Shown: piece after piece, positions 2,043-61,787 of the stretch
How positions within the stretch are numbered: the first letter of the stretch is position 1
Layout: every line of letters begins with the position of its first letter
DNA from: Siphonodentalium dalli
Lineage: Eukaryota > Mollusca > Scaphopoda > Gadilida > Siphonodentaliidae
Direction: 5' to 3'
Length of the DNA: 64,000 nucleotides
NCBI GenBank assembly: GCA_032622095.1
Contig: CP136062.1
Coordinates: 11,127,710-11,191,709, forward strand
Notes under the pieces: model-generated
Databases searched by the model: none
What the model was told of the DNA's origin: nothing
The model's input: the letters and a program-made list of their open reading frames with translations, nothing else
Made by a program: the position numbers and the translations under genes

Positions 2043-3724
2043 GGCCGAATTAAAATATTTTCCAGCCACATCGATGAATCCAAGATCATCCTTCTTGATT
2101 CGCCATTTTCGACTGCATATTTTAACGAAGAGTATGTGTCGTACTTTGTCATCAATTTAGAGCACTTCAATACAAATCTGTGGAACTAATCACGCATGAT
2201 TGTGGTTGTTTTGTTTGTATGACGACAACAGCATGAATAATATGGATACCAATGTCCTAGTGGGATATATTCTGCAGGTATCGATCATACGCGATGCCAA
2301 TAATTATTTTAAAAAATAATACATTTACGATTTGAGATAGACGGGATCAGTTGTGACTGTGTACGTACATGTACATATGTGGATGTTAATATCAGCAAAC
2401 TATATATAGGGACTATAACATTGCATAGCAATATACTGACCTATTAATTTTAAACCCAGAGTGTTTGCCGCCATCCATGGCGTACCACCCGACGGTGTAT
2501 ACAAACACAGCCATATAGAAGGGAATCATAATTCCTATTAACCGCCAGGGCAGATATATAGCACACACTATGGGCTGAGACAATTTGAGATATCTGCCGC
2601 CGCCCCTAAGGCACGCCATCGGATTATATTAGTTATGGATGGGCTAACACGCGCCGGCAGGCGATCTCACTGCTCAAGATAGATATTCCCTCCTGTTTGG
2701 CTTTTGTAGTAAATCGCCAAATGTATGCGTGACACAATGTGATACATACATATTTACCCCAGTTATTTTAATTTATCAGACGGTCACCATATCACCAAGT
2801 TACAACGACAATATTTCTACAATCGGATAATGCATCTTAAAAAGCACTTAATCGGATAATGCATCTTTAAAAGCACTTAACATTAACAATGATTAGCGCA
2901 CCACATATAAATGTACATTCATGGCACCGACAAACAAGATTTCATGTTCAACACTATGAAAGCGTACTGAAAACATAAAATTCGTAATTATGGTGATAAA
3001 TCACGCATATAATCCATCGATATACTCAACATCTGCTTATGTATGCATTGCATGAAATCATTGGTTATGACCAATGACAAATAGAGTGCGTCGCCCCCTG
3101 TCATGGATGCGATCAACCAGCATCGTGTACCTTACACCGTTGCAGGGACGTGGCAACAGTATATACACTGAAAATATTGTTGACTTAACTGTTTGCTCAA
3201 CAATTTGACTCCTATTACTTTTTGCTAAATATGACGTGTACCGCCTCCTCTGGTCTGATCTCACCCTCGCGCGCGCTTCGGCTACTCCATTATCAACTTT
3301 CCTCCATTATGGAGAGCAAATATATATAGTCTTTTGTGTGTTATAAACATACAATAGGTGCATGGCCTCATTGGGCTTGCTTTCATAATACAAGAGAGTC
3401 AACTCTGAAGAAATACCATCGGTTTGAAATTGGTAGCGTCTTCCATCCTTATATAAGAGGGGTATATACCAGCTTGAAGTACCGGTTTAATTAATAGGTT
3501 CAATGCAAGGGGCCACCAGAGAGGTTTGTCTAGTTCGGGATGGTGCGGCAAACCACCAACTGGAGATTTCAAGGGAGGCCTCCTCAATGGCGACCCACTA
3601 TATTGTGCAAACAAAATTTTATTAAAATTGTATAAAGGTCAGCATGCCATAAGAGCATTGAGAAATAGATAATAACACTTACTGACAGATTGCCAATAAA
3701 AAAATTACAGCTGTTGAAACTATT
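2043..3724. other. No gene recognised
   Basis: AT-rich sequence without a supportable coding region; open frames are at most about 71 codons and show no family motif. The only structure seen is a ~29-bp unit repeated twice in tandem at 2822-2879 ('atcggataatgcatct...aagcactta'). Confidence 0.6.
2822..2879. repeat. Two-copy 29-bp tandem repeat
   Basis: The phrase beginning 'atcggataatgcatct' and ending 'aagcacttA' occurs twice back to back with one A/T length difference. Confidence 0.85.
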
Positions 3725-4110: not shown

Positions 4111-4380
4111 ATTTCTTAACTTAGAAAAAAAATCTTGAAACAAGAAATATATATTTAATTTTTGAAGCCATTTTCTTAGTAAGGAAATTGTTTCTTGTTT
4201 CAAGACTAAAATCTATCTTTTTTGAGAAAACTATCTTTTGTCTGGTGGGAGTTTCTTAAATTTTCTTGATGTAGCAGACTTGGGGGGTATATTTCCCAAA
4301 ATAAGATTTATTTTCCTGTTTCAGGAAATAGTTTTTCTTGTTTCAAGATATTTTATCTTATTAAGAAATTATTTTTGGCA
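4111..4380. mobile_element. AT-rich foldback element abutting the LINE
   Basis: An inverted repeat pairs 'atttcttaacttag...cttgaaacaag' (4111-4147) with 'cttgtttcaag...ttaagaaat' (4332-4369). A third copy of 'tttcttgtttcaaga' lies inside near 4190. The block ends at 'ttggcagtgcag', immediately where LINE endonuclease coding begins, so it appears to have replaced or interrupted the 5' end of that element. MITE-like by structure; family not assigned. Confidence 0.55.
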
Positions 4381-4387
4381 GTGCAGA

Positions 4388-7315
4388 AGCCTCAATGCAA
4401 ATTTTGAAAATTTACAAAATCTTTTATGTGACATGAAAATCAATGACAACAATCTTGATATAATAGCGCTAACCGAAACATTCAAAATACACCAAGCATC
4501 GGACTTTAAACTCTCCTGCTATCATCCCATATAATTTAAATCAAGGCCTGATCACGATGATGGTAGGGGTGGTGTTGGTATTTACATAAGAGACACTATT
4601 ACGTATAAAAACAGACCCGATCTATCAATATTAATCCCACATGTTATTGAAACTGTGTTCATTGAGCTTGAATTCGGAAAACATGAAATATATATCATAG
4701 TATGTATTTATAGACCTAACTCGGCACCAAAAGCTGACTTTGACAAGTTTGCCTCTAAATTCGACGAACTCTTAGATATAATAAAAAATCATAAGACTTA
4801 TATAATCGGTGATTTCAATATCGATCTACTAAATTTCGATGCGCACAATAAAACAAACGACTTTTTAAACAATGTATTGACACGAGGATTCGTGCCCATG
4901 ATAACAAAACCGACAAGAATGACCGATCACTCAGCGACCCTTATCGATCATATATACACAAATAATCTTCGAAACGAACACTGCTCTTGTATAGTTACAT
5001 GTGATTTGTCAGATCACTTTGGGGTATTTCTCACTGACACCGAAGGTCATAACGGACATAACCGATTCAAAAACCCACATGAAATCATGCGAACTCCCAG
5101 ACGAAACTTTTCCCAAGAAAATATTAATAAATTCAACGATACTCTTAAATCGTGTAATTTCCATTCGGTTTGTAATTGTAATAATATAGATCAAGCATAC
5201 GAAAACATTTTGGATATCTATTTGACAGCATACAATGTAGCTTTTCCGCCCATTACCCGAAACATACCCAAAAAATTCATCAAACGCGAACCATGGATGA
5301 CCACCGGATTAATAAGATCTTCACTTAAGAAACAAGAACTATATACCCATAAACTAAGCTCGCCCTCCTCCATCCATACGAATTCCTACCTCAAATATCG
5401 ACAACTATATAACAAACTTATCCGGAAAAGTAGAAGAATGTATTACTGTGAGATATTAGAAAAGAATAAGTATAGTTTAAAAGAAACATGGAAGACCTTC
5501 AAAGGTGCAATAAAACGAGACAAAAATACGGGTGGCTACCCGAATGTTCTACATGATAACAACATACAATTTACAATTCCTGACACTATCGCTGAAAAAT
5601 TTAATGACTATTTTTCCAATATAGGTCAAAAAACCACAGAACTTATTGAAAATCACACAGATGTAAACTTCCTCGATTATTTAACGAATAGACAAAGCAA
5701 CGAGCTAAATATTACGCCCACCACAATCCAAAAGGTTATTTTAACTTGCTACTCAATGAATGGAAAAACCAGCAGTGACTTCAATGGAATATCTACAAAA
5801 CTGATGAAGGAAACCATATTTTCTGTAGCACCAGCATTAAAGCATATATTCAACTTGTCGTTCAAACAAGGTCATGTTCCCAACAAAATGAAAATAGCTA
5901 AAGTTGTACCAATACCGAAAAATAGTGACAAGGGGGATATAAACAATTATCGTCCAATAAGCATTCTTCCCGCATTTTCTAAACTACTCGAAAAACTCAT
6001 GCAAAAACGATTAGTTGATTTTCTTAATGAATCGGACATCTTATTTAAACATCAGTACGGATTTCGCCCAAACCATTCAACTTTTCATCCCATCATTCAT
6101 CTACTGGATCATGTTGTAAAAAATAACGACAAGCCCACGAAAGATTCCACCGTAGCCCGTTTTCTTGATCTGTCCAAATCTTTTGACACAATAAACCACG
6201 AAATCTTACTTACAAAAATTGAACATTATGGAATTAGAGGCATGGCAAACAACTGGTTTCGAAGCTATCTCAATGAGAGACGACAATACGTAGAATTCAA
6301 TGGAAGCAAGTCAAATCTCCTAAAAACATCATGTGGTGTTCCTCAGGGATCCTTACTCGGACCCATAATGTTTCTCCTCTACGTGAACGATATGTCAAAT
6401 GCAACTACTATGGATCTCTTATCATATGCCGACGATACAACCCTTATGGCCAGTGGACAAAATGAAGCGTTAATCCAAAGTTATGTCAATAACGAATTAA
6501 GAAATCTATCTGACTGGTGTTGCTGCAACAAACTAGCCCATCAATGCTAACAAAAGCAATTATATGCTCTTGCATCCACAAACAATGACAAAAAATGGAA
6601 TACAATTAAAATATATCTCAATGGAGCCGAACTTCTACGGATAGGGAACATGCGGAGCGAATCGTCTGCCAAATTTTTAGGTATCCATATAGATGAAAAC
6701 CTGACCTTTAATAAACACATTTCTATTGTATCCTCAAAAATGGCACATTCAATTTATTGCATTAATAAAGTTAAACATTTTCTCCCGAGCAAGGCTCTCA
6801 AAACATTATACTTCGCCCTAATTCAAAGCCACTTTGTTTATGGCATCCAAATATGGGGACATGTACCAGCAGTGAAGAAACTATATTTATTACAAAAACG
6901 AGCCATGAGAATTATATGTAACAAAAAATATAGAAGTCACACCGATCCTCTTTTCAAACAAGAAAACATTTTAAAAATAGATGATTAAATAAATTACATG
7001 CATCCATTTGCATGCATGATTGGTACTACGATCGCTTACCAGTGTCTTTTTCTGGTATTGTATGACAAGAGAGCAGAACCAAATAGACGACAACCTAATC
7101 CTATAGTACAAACAAAATTCAGGACCATCTCTTTTTCTAAAGTTCTCCCATACCATTCATTCCCATTTATGTGGAATTCCCTTGAAAGTAAATATACCTC
7201 TAAACAATCAAGACATGTGTTCCGAAAACGTTTGAAAACGGATATAATTAATACCTATCCAGCTAGCGTGCGATGCAAAAACCGAAGATGCCCTGATTGC
7301 ACAAACGATACATAA
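4388..7315 (+). pseudogene. Decayed LINE ORF2: APE endonuclease plus reverse transcriptase
   Basis: This is the replication protein of a non-LTR retrotransposon. The N-terminal part contains an apurinic-type endonuclease: RSLNANF near 4388, GDFNID at residues 52-57 of the main open frame (4655-6550), LIDHIYT and SDH further on. The reverse transcriptase follows with NYRPIS (431-436), LDLSKSF (504-510), GVPQGS (561-566) and the catalytic YADD (591-594). The thumb and C-terminal part continue at 6650-6988 and 6998-7315, ending in a Cys-rich CxxxxxxxC tail. The reading frame is the same throughout but is broken by stops at 4532 and 6986, and by a pair of compensating frameshifts between about 6535 and 6600. 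Catalytic residues survive, so decay looks moderate. The layout suits the Jockey/CR1/Rex1 group, clade not settled. The 5' end is missing or displaced by the foldback at 4111-4380. Confidence 0.93.
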
Positions 7316-15084: not shown

Positions 15085-16041
15085 GTGCGTTCTTCACGTG
15101 CAACGTCACTTGAACTCGGGATCCGTTATGGGTTTCAATCGCAGACTGAGAATACACAGAGCCAACGGCTAGGCTCCCTCTCCACGACCCAACCATCAAG
15201 GCCGATAACTCTTGAAAACTTAATTCCAGTCTGGATTGCGGCTTTCTGTGAATATAGTGACATCCACCAATTGATATCGATGATCGAGATAAACAGAATA
15301 TTGGGCGCAGAAAAGTTCGTCTTCTACAATATTAGTATTGACACGAGAGTAAACCACGCACTACACACGTACATTTCAGAAGGTATTGGTGACGTGTATC
15401 GATGGGATACACGGGGTCTTCTCTTCAGGAAATATGGTAATGCCAAATCAGCCCCGGAGGAGCACAAGGAAATAATGAGTTACATTACGTTGGCCCGAAC
15501 AGCGCGCCCAACGACTGTTTGTATAGATATAGGCGTGAAGTGAATTCCTTATCTTAGTAGACATGGATGAGCACATCGTCCCAAAGAATAGCAAGCATTG
15601 GGCTGGAGTTAGACAACAAATTGTCACACACGTCTAGTTATCGTTACCCTAACTAATTTTTCAAGCTATTTCCGGATACGACAAACAGTTCAAGAGTTGT
15701 GAATTATCGAATATTATCTTTGCAGAAAATGTTGTCCGTGACAAATGTATAGAGAAAACTATATATTCCCGCACAAAATTCGACGAAAGAGTATTATAAG
15801 ACCACATTACGTAGATCTGATGGGGATACACCAAATATTTCGGTTCAGGAAAAATACGAGTGTAGAGCATTTTGTTAACTCTACATATGCTCTAGTCCAT
15901 CACTACCGTATGGGCTGGTGGGGTAAACAATATCCCCGTACACTGGACTCGGCACTAGAGCCACACGAAGGACAAATCATAAAAAGTGTCAGTGGCAAAT
16001 GGAACATGTTATGTGATAAAAACAAAACGTATTGTCTGTAA
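15085..16041 (+). pseudogene. GT92-family glycosyltransferase pseudogene
   Basis: Glycosyltransferase family 92 (DUF23) enzymes are type II membrane proteins that transfer sugars in the secretory pathway. The recognisable core is spread over three frames. One frame gives the Rossmann-like segment with INRILGAEKFVFYN (about 15288-15340). A second gives NDCLYRYR (about 15510-15535). A third, starting at 15542, gives FLILVDMDEHIVP, matching the family's metal-binding D-x-D motif (usually DxDEFIVP). After stops at about 15639 and 15654, that third frame reads on to about 15790. The first frame then returns with IIRPHYVDLMGIH and the conserved C-terminal LVHHYR (about 15790-15905). At least three frameshifts and two stops show it is not functional. 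No introns are visible across ~950 bp, and no signal anchor is recognisable upstream. Confidence 0.85.
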
Positions 16042-59437: not shown

Positions 59438-59518
59438 CAATATCGAACCGACAACAGTAATAAAAAAAACCTTTAATCCAATTACTAGTCTAACAACCCC
59501 ATCATGATTACCCTTTAT

Positions 59519-59890
59519 TCGTGCGTATTCATCCTATGTGAAGGCGACACAAACATTCGACATCGTGCCAACAAAAGTGGTGGAGGACTTTAGCGACAAG
59601 CTGATAACAGAGTTGCAAGGATACATCAGAAGAGAAAATGTCTGACAAGAGCTCGACGTAATAACAGGATCGTCCAGTAATTTTTGGTCCAAATCCATTC
59701 CAAGCTTTTGTAGTCACTTTACCACTAATTTGCCACCACCTCCCCCCGATAAAAAAAACTCTCAAACTGGAATTATAGAATGAAATTCAATTAAACACAA
59801 TTGCTATGATAGTTTATGAAGCCCGTGCACCATTCCAATTGACATATTATATTTGACAATGATAATGCTGGTGGTGATATTGCATACTAT
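59519..59890. mobile_element. DNA element, copy A (lacks the hammerhead foldback)
   Basis: Shares with 60645-60783 plus 61392-61580: 'gtgcgtatt', 'gaggactttagcgaca', 'ctgataac', 'agagaaaatg', 'gacgtaataacag', then 'attccaagctt', 'agtcactt', 'aaactc(t/a)caaa', 'caattgctatga', 'gaagcccgtgca' and 'tatatttgacaat'. The two halves are contiguous here at about 59667/59668, giving an empty site for the insertion present in copy B. Confidence 0.88.
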
Positions 59891-60454: not shown

Positions 60455-60847
60455 TAAATCAACTGCCGTTGTCTCTCGTCCGTAGCAGTTCAAAGCGCGC
60501 GAATTTTATGTTCACACCGCAAGCGACTGAATCGCTGAACACGAGGCGACCACAGCAGTGAGTTTATGTTTCGTCGATTTCTCGCTTTGTGGCAAACTAG
60601 AGAGATAATTGGGTCGCTGCCAAATAGGATATGTATACGTGCGTATTACTCCTATTTGAAGCGACACCCTCTTTCGTCGTCGCGACAACAAATGTGATGG
60701 AGGACTTTAGCGACATATTGATAACTGAAGTCAAGGAAAAATGAAAAGAGAAAATGCCTGGCAAGAGCCCGACGTAATAACAGTTTTTTATATAAAATTG
60801 GATAAATACCAACATCCCATCCGATCTATGGACGGGACATTCTATGT

Positions 60848-60937
60848 AGCACTCTACGCTGCCTTTTAGCGTTTCGACCTATTTTTTCCCCCAATTTAGA
60901 AATTGGTGACCCGCAAGGTCTCATCAGGAGAGAGCGG
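60848..60937 (-). ncRNA. Hammerhead ribozyme motif, left arm
   Basis: On the minus strand the core reads CTGATGA (60927-60921), stem II GACCT...AGGTC (60920-60916 with 60880-60876), GAAA (60875-60872), stem III CGCT-AAAAGGC-AGCG (60871-60857), then TA (60856-60855), which gives a GUA cleavage triplet. Predicted cleavage is between 60855 and 60854. Stem I pairs at least GAG (60854-60852) with CTC (60930-60928) and is weak beyond that. The distal part of stem II holds CCAATTT-CT-AAATTGG. Stem I is the open one, so type I. Confidence 0.8.
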
Positions 60938-61180
60938 AATTAAGATTCCTCAAAGTAAATGAGGGATCAACACATATAGGTATGTGTGCATGGTAGATAC
61001 AGACTGTCTCAAGACAGCTGAGTTGAACGAGGGCCTTCAAGGCTTCGCATGTTGTTCATAGTAACATGCCTATTATAATAAGCGTGAGTTATTGCGTCAT
61101 TCGTTGTAAAATAGCAATAAGTCGGAAGCAACATTATGTGCAAGTTATCGCAGACTGAAGTTGAGTGGTCTGCCTTAATT

Positions 61181-61270
61181 CCGCTCTCTCCTGATGAGAC
61201 CTTGCGGGTCACCAATTTATAAATTGGGGGACAAAATAGGTCGAAACACTAAAAGGCAGTGTAGAGTGCT
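61181..61270 (+). ncRNA. Hammerhead ribozyme motif, right arm
   Basis: Core: CTGATGA (61191-61197), stem II GACCT (61198-61202) with AGGTC (61238-61242), GAAA (61243-61246), stem III CACT (61247-61250), loop AAAAGGC, AGTG (61258-61261), then TA (61262-61263). The cleavage triplet is GUA and predicted cleavage falls after 61263. Stem I starts CTC (61188-61190) with GAG (61264-61266). The inner part of stem II is the palindrome CCAATTTATAAATTGG. Against the left-arm copy, stem III shows a paired change (A-T here, G-C there) and the stem II inner loop changes only in the loop. Confidence 0.83.
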
Positions 61271-61337
61271 ACATAGAATCGGATGGGATGTTGGTGTTTA
61301 TCCAATTTTATATTAAAAAAGGAGTGCTACATAGAAT
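61264..61337. repeat. Partial duplication beginning at the ribozyme cleavage point
   Basis: GAGTGCTACATAGAAT occurs at 61264-61279 and again at 61322-61337. The first copy starts with the nucleotide right after the predicted cleavage site and lacks a ~15-bp segment ('gtcccgtccatagat') present in the second copy and in the left arm. Confidence 0.93.
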
Positions 61338-61787
61338 GTCCCGTCCATAGATCGGATGGGATGTTGGTATTTATCCTATTTTATATAAAAACTTCTGGCT
61401 AATATGTTGTCCCAATTTATTCCAAGCTTGTGAAGTCACTTGGCCCACAATTTACACCCCCCCCCTCCGAAAAAAAACCTCACAAAATGGAATTTTATAA
61501 TGACATTCAACTAAATGCAATTGCTATGAACATTAGGAAGCCCGTGCACTATTCATCTTGACATACTATATTTGACAATTAAATGAGTTTGAAAAACTCA
61601 TACATGTATATGTTTAGCAAATTCTGATTAAAATGTCCATATCCATTGTATTTGTGACCTGCCTGTAAATGATGCACTCAAACGATTATCTACCCAAACC
61701 ATCGCGCGCGACGAAGCGATCAAGTCGCGTTCGGTGTGAATATAAAAATCGTGCGCTTTGAACCGCTATGGGCGACAGCAAAACGGC

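Follow-up and report, generated by a model that had tools for sequence, protein, structure and literature searches.

Hammerhead motifs in a scaphopod genome lie at the 3' ends of a non-coding, putatively Penelope-like retroelement whose tails can begin at the predicted cut

Hammerhead ribozymes (HHRs) of Penelope-like retroelements (PLEs) are described as minimal, without helix III or loop-loop contacts, and their activity and role are called 'still a mystery' in the consulted sections of a 2020 review (PMC7761336). The protein of the anole PLE Poseidon PAc (Anolis carolinensis) cuts and extends both target strands, reverse transcription (RT) starts inside the template, and the genomic PAc tails end at this RT start (PMC11167929). 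The PAc HHR cut lies at +26 and the RT start at +111 to +118 (PMC11167929); by our subtraction the two are 85-92 nt apart. The PAc HHR needed protein; its mutation left insertion in vitro unaffected, and no reads were seen at the cut (PMC11167929). In Adineta vaga, Penelope elements are often inserted with inverted pLTRs, most commonly head-to-head, according to the consulted portions of the report; the words 'hammerhead' and 'ribozyme' are absent from its main text (PMC3846280).

A 64-kb stretch of Siphonodentalium dalli DNA (the window) had been described, in a sequence-only reading, as containing a foldback DNA element with one ribozyme in each arm. All HHR parts named in that reading are present. 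In the plus arm (61191-61263), CTGATGA, stem II (GACCT/AGGTC), GAAA, stem III and GTA follow one another, and the minus arm (60927-60855) has the same order from CTGATGA to GTA. Stem III comprises 4 bp with a 7-base loop in both motifs, the pairs being CACT/AGTG in the plus arm and CGCT/AGCG in the minus arm. The arms themselves (60839-60944/61174-61279) are 96% complementary, with 4 differences in 106 positions. A descriptor combining the core, a 4-bp stem II, a 4-bp stem III and a 3-bp stem I matched only these two places in the window and none in 300 dinucleotide shuffles; when stem I was not required, the window gave 2 matches versus 1 in 100 shuffles. The CUGANGA and GAAA core, the closed stems II and III, the open stem I and the UH at the cut are those of a type I hammerhead, as had been proposed.

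Covariance models scored the motifs weakly. An Rfam scan of the window yielded 0 matches at the gathering score; at E values up to 1 the plus arm alone was found, by the type III model RF00008 (18.8 bits, E 0.39, gathering 48.5), a model on which a typical genomic copy of the HHR reached 15.0 bits. RF00163 gave no match over the genome among the best 73 of 419,400 candidates scored, a search in which the controls gave no match either. In seven folds, the structure constrained to the hammerhead lay 3.5-5.5 kcal/mol above the minimum free energy (MFE) and the exact hammerhead register had a calculated probability of 3e-5 to 8e-4, in energies that take in no tertiary contacts, magnesium or protein. 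The weakness of stem I remarked on in the sequence-only reading is thus borne out. In four of the folds (the two window arms, a shortened version of the minus arm, and unit 282-385) the MFE structure retains stems II and III, but stem I slips two bases along a CU repeat; the three folds of longer unit pieces favour a different structure over the hammerhead. As sequence motifs with predicted cuts, both window HHRs are real.

The genome (2.23 Gb, nine contigs) was searched with the complete 608-bp insertion. Scoring of the best 40 of 426 candidates gave 87 matches: the window itself, a single further copy over the full length, 39 copies that align as far as position 394, and, at these same places, additional hits that are partial or inverted. 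A 439-nt end unit from locus L012 gave 42 matches when the best 40 of 430 candidates were scored, 40 of them at 99-100%, one at 98% and one covering the tail only. Since only the best-scored candidates are included, these copy sets are biased to intact copies. The fetched loci contained 73 full-unit rows, 42 of which had distinct flank strings. Among these 42 copies, 36 different right flanks (25 nt directly after the tail) were counted, and the same left continuation was seen in 37. The other five (L046-L049, L052) have a different left sequence joined at unit position 1 and share the sequence on their right, which indicates a larger duplicated context. The copies have a fixed 3' end in common (...TTTTATATAAAA/A) and are 5'-truncated at varied points (L073, L070, L067, L013).

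The longest form is a 4,456-nt unit (L010:912-5367, GC 0.371) in head-to-tail order, and head-to-tail arrays show a spacing of 4,456-4,476, with a period near 4.46 kb. The predicted HHR cut falls at unit 4385/4386, 71 nt upstream of the 3' end. The 4.45-kb unit contains no RT or GIY-YIG frame, its longest open frame being 118 aa, antisense. The unit body includes a minisatellite (L010:1174-2281) whose 160-bp repeat is present about 7 times. Tail-like internal segments occur at unit 2429-2455, 3005-3087 and 3597-3680 (~75-96% over 27-64 nt), and the body looks as if it had been assembled from older nested insertions. The flanks of the 42 copies did not show the preference for AT-rich insertion sites that is reported for PLEs: AT was 0.622 over the 15 nt that follow the tail versus 0.621 at 200-600 nt. 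Eleven copies were inspected for target-site duplications (TSDs); the left boundary was visible in seven, and one 9-nt match was found, in a nested copy. An exact 20-mer search of IMG/VR returned 0 matches, and a phage collection gave no match. Judged by these copies, the family is a non-coding retroelement that is young and dispersed and always ends at the same 3' position.

Table 1. Features of the insertion and its surroundings, in window coordinates
Feature	Position	Strand	Description
Composite insertion	60784..61391		608 bp; two inverted retroelement 3'-end copies and an extra tail
Minus-strand copy	60785..61173	-	unit 4455 down to 4065 (unit L010:912-5367), tail outward
3' tail of minus copy	60785..60854	-	GAGTGC...TATAAAAA, from predicted cut to 3' end
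HHR motif	60855..60927	-	CTGATGA ... GTA; predicted cut between 60855 and 60854
Plus-strand copy	61174..61318	+	unit 4295-4455 minus ~13-15 nt of the tail hairpin
HHR motif	61191..61263	+	predicted cut between 61263 and 61264
Extra tail copy	61322..61391	+	unit 4386-4455; starts at the first base past the predicted cut
Paralogous direct repeat without insertion	59516..59867	+	matches both flanks (60634-60783, 61400-61585)

Alignment of the window with this unit accounts for both arms (Table 1). What had been taken for a foldback DNA element consists of the 3' end of a single retroelement, present in two inverted copies, so that a link to retroelements, also raised in the sequence-only reading, applies. 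The plus copy corresponds to the unit in two blocks (61174-61279 to 4295-4401, 61278-61318 to 4415-4455), and its head meets that of the minus copy at a joint where the two have up to 4 bp in common. Comparison with the uninterrupted repeat revealed no clear TSD at the insertion. Hence, as read from the alignments, the insertion comprises a head-to-head pair of 5'-truncated copies and a further tail that starts at the predicted cut. A second composite was found at C3:7631105-7631711 in the 608-bp search (best 40 of 426 candidates); it sits inside about 5.7 kb that is shared with the window at about 97% and therefore reflects duplication rather than mobility of the composite itself. The sequence-only reading knew of no described family with this layout. 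A closely similar arrangement, with inverted pLTRs, is described for Penelope elements in the consulted portions of PMC3846280, and the head-to-head form is ordinary for Penelope-like, HHR-bearing retroelements.

Inverted joints are also found elsewhere in the family. In L068, the unit runs from 4411 down to 3650 and then from 3293 up; the tail of its minus member is preceded by GTA, and HHR and tail point outward. Further inverted joints are present in L023 and L017. At C1:168574498 (-) and C1:168574694 (+), diverging tail+body starts lie 172 bp apart, the plus-strand member having a tail without GTA before it; more tail starts follow 4,469 bp outward on either side, and the arrangement looks like two nearly complete copies set head-to-head. 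At C5:150197547 (-) and C5:150197750 (+), tail starts with GTA before them lie on opposite strands ~180 bp apart, and are probably another small foldback of the kind found in the window. Elsewhere in the window, a 631-aa LINE frame with RVT_1 and endonuclease domains occupies 4655-6547. A 152-aa frame at 15085-15543 resembles glycosyltransferase family 92 by eye; a homolog search scored none for this frame.

The stem III difference between the arms had been read as compensatory. The paired difference is there: the family has CACT/AGTG (A-U), the minus arm of the C3 duplicate CGCT/AGTG (G-U) and the window minus arm CGCT/AGCG (G-C), all three of which pair. These steps, however, fall within a single lineage of one dead insertion, with the G-U state as intermediate, and cannot show selection; stem III covariation as a sign of selection was rejected. 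The HHR region is identical in 35 of 49 aligned rows, and the only paired change is that of the single lineage, so the young copies are too alike for a covariation test of the stems. As the sequence-only reading had asked of other genomic copies, the core is kept: the HHR core strings are intact in 40 of the 42 full-length copies, the exceptions being L052 (core CTGGTGA) and L023 (AGGTT in stem II). A subfamily in which stem II is shortened (CTGATGAGACCTTAATTGGTTGACAAAATAGGTCGAAAC) keeps the core too. It accounts for 32 mutually identical places, spread over all nine contigs, among the 42 found with a generic pattern (reversed control 1); at those whose coordinates were compared, such as C1:101179410, C1:117373038 and C1:156867533, the tail start comes next. 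A different second hammerhead core (CTGATGAGTCC...GGCCGAAAC) occurs at C4:231650582 and C4:231650955, on the same strand and 373 bp apart; to go by its sequence, this pair may represent a short retrozyme of the classical type.

We then turn to the bases that precede the tail. Across the fetched loci and the window, which overlap and are redundant, GAGTGCTACATAGAAT is preceded by AGTGTA or AGCGTA 90 times; the 7 rows in which it is not represent 3 independent places and their duplicates. At these three read junctions (window 61322, also in C3; C1:176369021; C2:196579646, minus strand) the tail begins at the predicted cut. A tail end lies upstream in each case, separated by a few bases that differ (after five A's: AG; CT; ATG). 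At C2:196579646 the tail continues into TGTTGCTCTTGTGGG, the start of the 4-kb body, and the copy thus begins tail-first. Tail+body junctions number 30 genome-wide (reversed control 0). GTA precedes the tail in 25 of them and is absent at C1:168574694, C2:66464438, C2:196579555, C5:57550251 and C9:10269250, one of which was read (C2:196579555).

Exact tail starts were counted over the whole genome and amount to 194-199: 199 for TGC... and 194 for GAGTGC..., falling to 176 with GTA before the tail (GTAGAGTGC...) and 171 with AGTGTA before it (AGTGTAGAGTGC...), while the reversed controls gave 0. Each triplet added upstream thus costs copies: 5 at the first step, 18 at the second, which is the cut, and 5 at the third, one of these last being the window's own AGCGTA. 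The excess at the cut, 18 of 28 losses, has a binomial p of 8e-4; it is 1.5e-3 without the C3 duplicate (17/27) and 0.010 without the four rows that prompted the question (14/24), values that serve as a guide, given two neighbouring triplets as controls, exact matches only and related copies. Of the 18 rows lost at the cut, 4 were read, representing 3 independent places, and the other 14 may include point changes in GTA; the first 100 places of each count suffice to name 10. As in the doublets that were read, C5:57550318 has a GTA-preceded tail close by, at a distance of 73 nt. Taken as they stand in the genome, these starts suggest that HHR-cut RNA ends become copy ends.

GIY-YIG sequences are plentiful in this genome, with 146 matches among the best 150 of 796 candidates. 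Many lie in open frames of 770-819 aa at a regular spacing of 4.4-4.9 kb, for example in the arrays that run from C1:118763839 and from C5:66869267 onward. Pfam was applied to two loci and identified GIY-YIG together with RVT_1 just above the cut-off at L084, where the frame is broken, and GIY-YIG alone at L077. The unit had nothing in common with 12 GIY-YIG loci at E<0.01, and two descriptors detected no HHR in them; in both comparisons the pLTR-ORF junctions, the expected HHR site, lie outside the sequence covered. An autonomous PLE sharing the tail was sought among these 12 loci, compared outside their pLTR-ORF junctions, and gave no candidate.

We consider it probable that the composite is a double insertion, head-to-head and 5'-truncated, of a non-coding, Penelope-like retroelement, and that it arose as follows. 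Head-to-tail arrays would be transcribed and the HHR would cut the multimer, leaving an RNA that begins with the 71-nt tail and continues through the ~4-kb body, the next HHR and the next tail. The reverse transcriptase, of PLE type and provided in trans, would begin copying at the downstream tail end. Both nicked target strands would prime such copying, and the joining of two cDNAs would give the head-to-head pair with tails outward that resembles a foldback. Tandem or partial-tandem copies and head-to-head inverted terminal copies are PLE features, both present in the family, and the tail position beyond the HHR fits an internal RT start of the PLE type. PLE membership is putative, as the family has no RT or GIY-YIG frame and neither AT-rich targets nor a TSD was found; the energetically disfavoured HHR fold, and the insertion of the anole PLE in vitro without need for HHR cleavage or reads at the cut, speak against the scheme as a whole. 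Within this scheme the hammerhead may act in vivo as a 5'-end maker, cutting array transcripts that RT then copies to the cut end, so that inserts begin there, a proposal we put forward tentatively and with slightly less than even confidence.

A fixed 3' end with varied 5' truncation would also suit a SINE-like, non-autonomous element moved by a LINE, with the HHR a mere relic. Twin priming is able to yield inversions and would account for the head-to-head form, a LINE frame is present in the window, and the targets are not AT-rich. Arrays, a tail beyond the HHR and tails at both outer ends nevertheless suit PLE insertion better, and the HHR strings, unbroken in 40 of the 42 copies, speak against a relic, though the copies are young; we regard LINE mobilization as unlikely. 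Still less probable is a giant metazoan non-LTR retrozyme copied via HHR-made circular RNA. The type I HHR, the tandem copies, the lack of a long frame and a GC of 0.371 are in its favour, HHR, tandem layout and low GC being common to retrozymes in the consulted text of PMC7229834. Yet the unit measures ~4.45 kb versus the 150-450 bp given there, and tail-first starts joined to a second tail suit a linear cut RNA, whereas a circle has no end at the cut. A foldback DNA transposon keeping two ribozymes, to which the long inverted arms with a ribozyme motif in each had pointed, was rejected as highly improbable: the arms span different parts of the unit (391 versus ~161 positions), their outer ends are retroelement 3' ends, and the only other composite found has shared flanks. 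The fragments are better read, from their sequence, as pieces of a long non-coding retroelement that is PLE-like and bears an HHR.

The pile-up of starts at the cut could also come from an RT stop at the fold, from slippage or from chance mutation of GTA, and not from ribozyme cleavage. Stem I starts at that very base and the RNA is folded, the sequence was read at 4 of 18 rows, and p is near 0.01 once the prompting rows are removed, which slightly lowers our confidence in both the PLE insertion and the 5'-end-maker proposals. However, RT coming from the 3' side meets stem I before, not after, the bases GAG, and the inter-tail bases differ at the three read junctions, which speaks against slippage of one ancestral duplication. 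An origin without ribozyme cleavage is accordingly somewhat doubtful.

The main point deserving attention, and a new one, is that some tails start precisely where the cut is predicted; in titles and the opening parts of abstracts under open licences, we found neither copies starting at an HHR cut nor a multi-kb, non-coding, PLE-like HHR element. If the hammerhead does make 5' ends, the PLE-type HHR gains a defined job and the family would be a long non-coding PLE parasite. As insertion starts around the cut can be counted in one genome, the question of the HHR role is testable from DNA alone.

Among known systems, the HDV-like ribozyme of R2 differs in being another ribozyme type in a site-specific LINE (consulted parts of PMC3774820). 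Terminons, as portrayed in the consulted text, resemble the S. dalli family in being PLE-related, with an HHR near the 3' end and head-to-tail arrays, but are giant, coding and joined to telomeric repeats (PMC6431247). With metazoan non-LTR retrozymes the family shares a type I HHR, a non-coding and non-autonomous nature, tandem copies and a GC below 50%; retrozymes have units of 150-450 bp and demonstrated circular RNA in the sections consulted, whereas the S. dalli unit measures ~4.45 kb (PMC7229834). Compared with the minimal PLE HHRs of the consulted review sections, the S. dalli HHR has a 4-bp stem III plus a core-adjacent A-U, with a 7-base loop (PMC7761336). The consulted portions on A. 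vaga Penelope report inverted terminal copies, an optional tail and partial tandems, as here; further likenesses are one microhomology junction without TSD, comparable to the window, and other sequence moved between pLTRs. Unlike the S. dalli family, A. vaga Penelope elements carry ORFs or captured host DNA (PMC3846280). Unlike PAc and other PLEs, the S. dalli unit is without an RT/GIY-YIG frame. Akin to PAc, it forms tandem arrays with the HHR in the repeated terminal part, and its tail ends 71 nt after the HHR cut, versus 85-92 nt, by subtraction, in PAc (PMC11167929).
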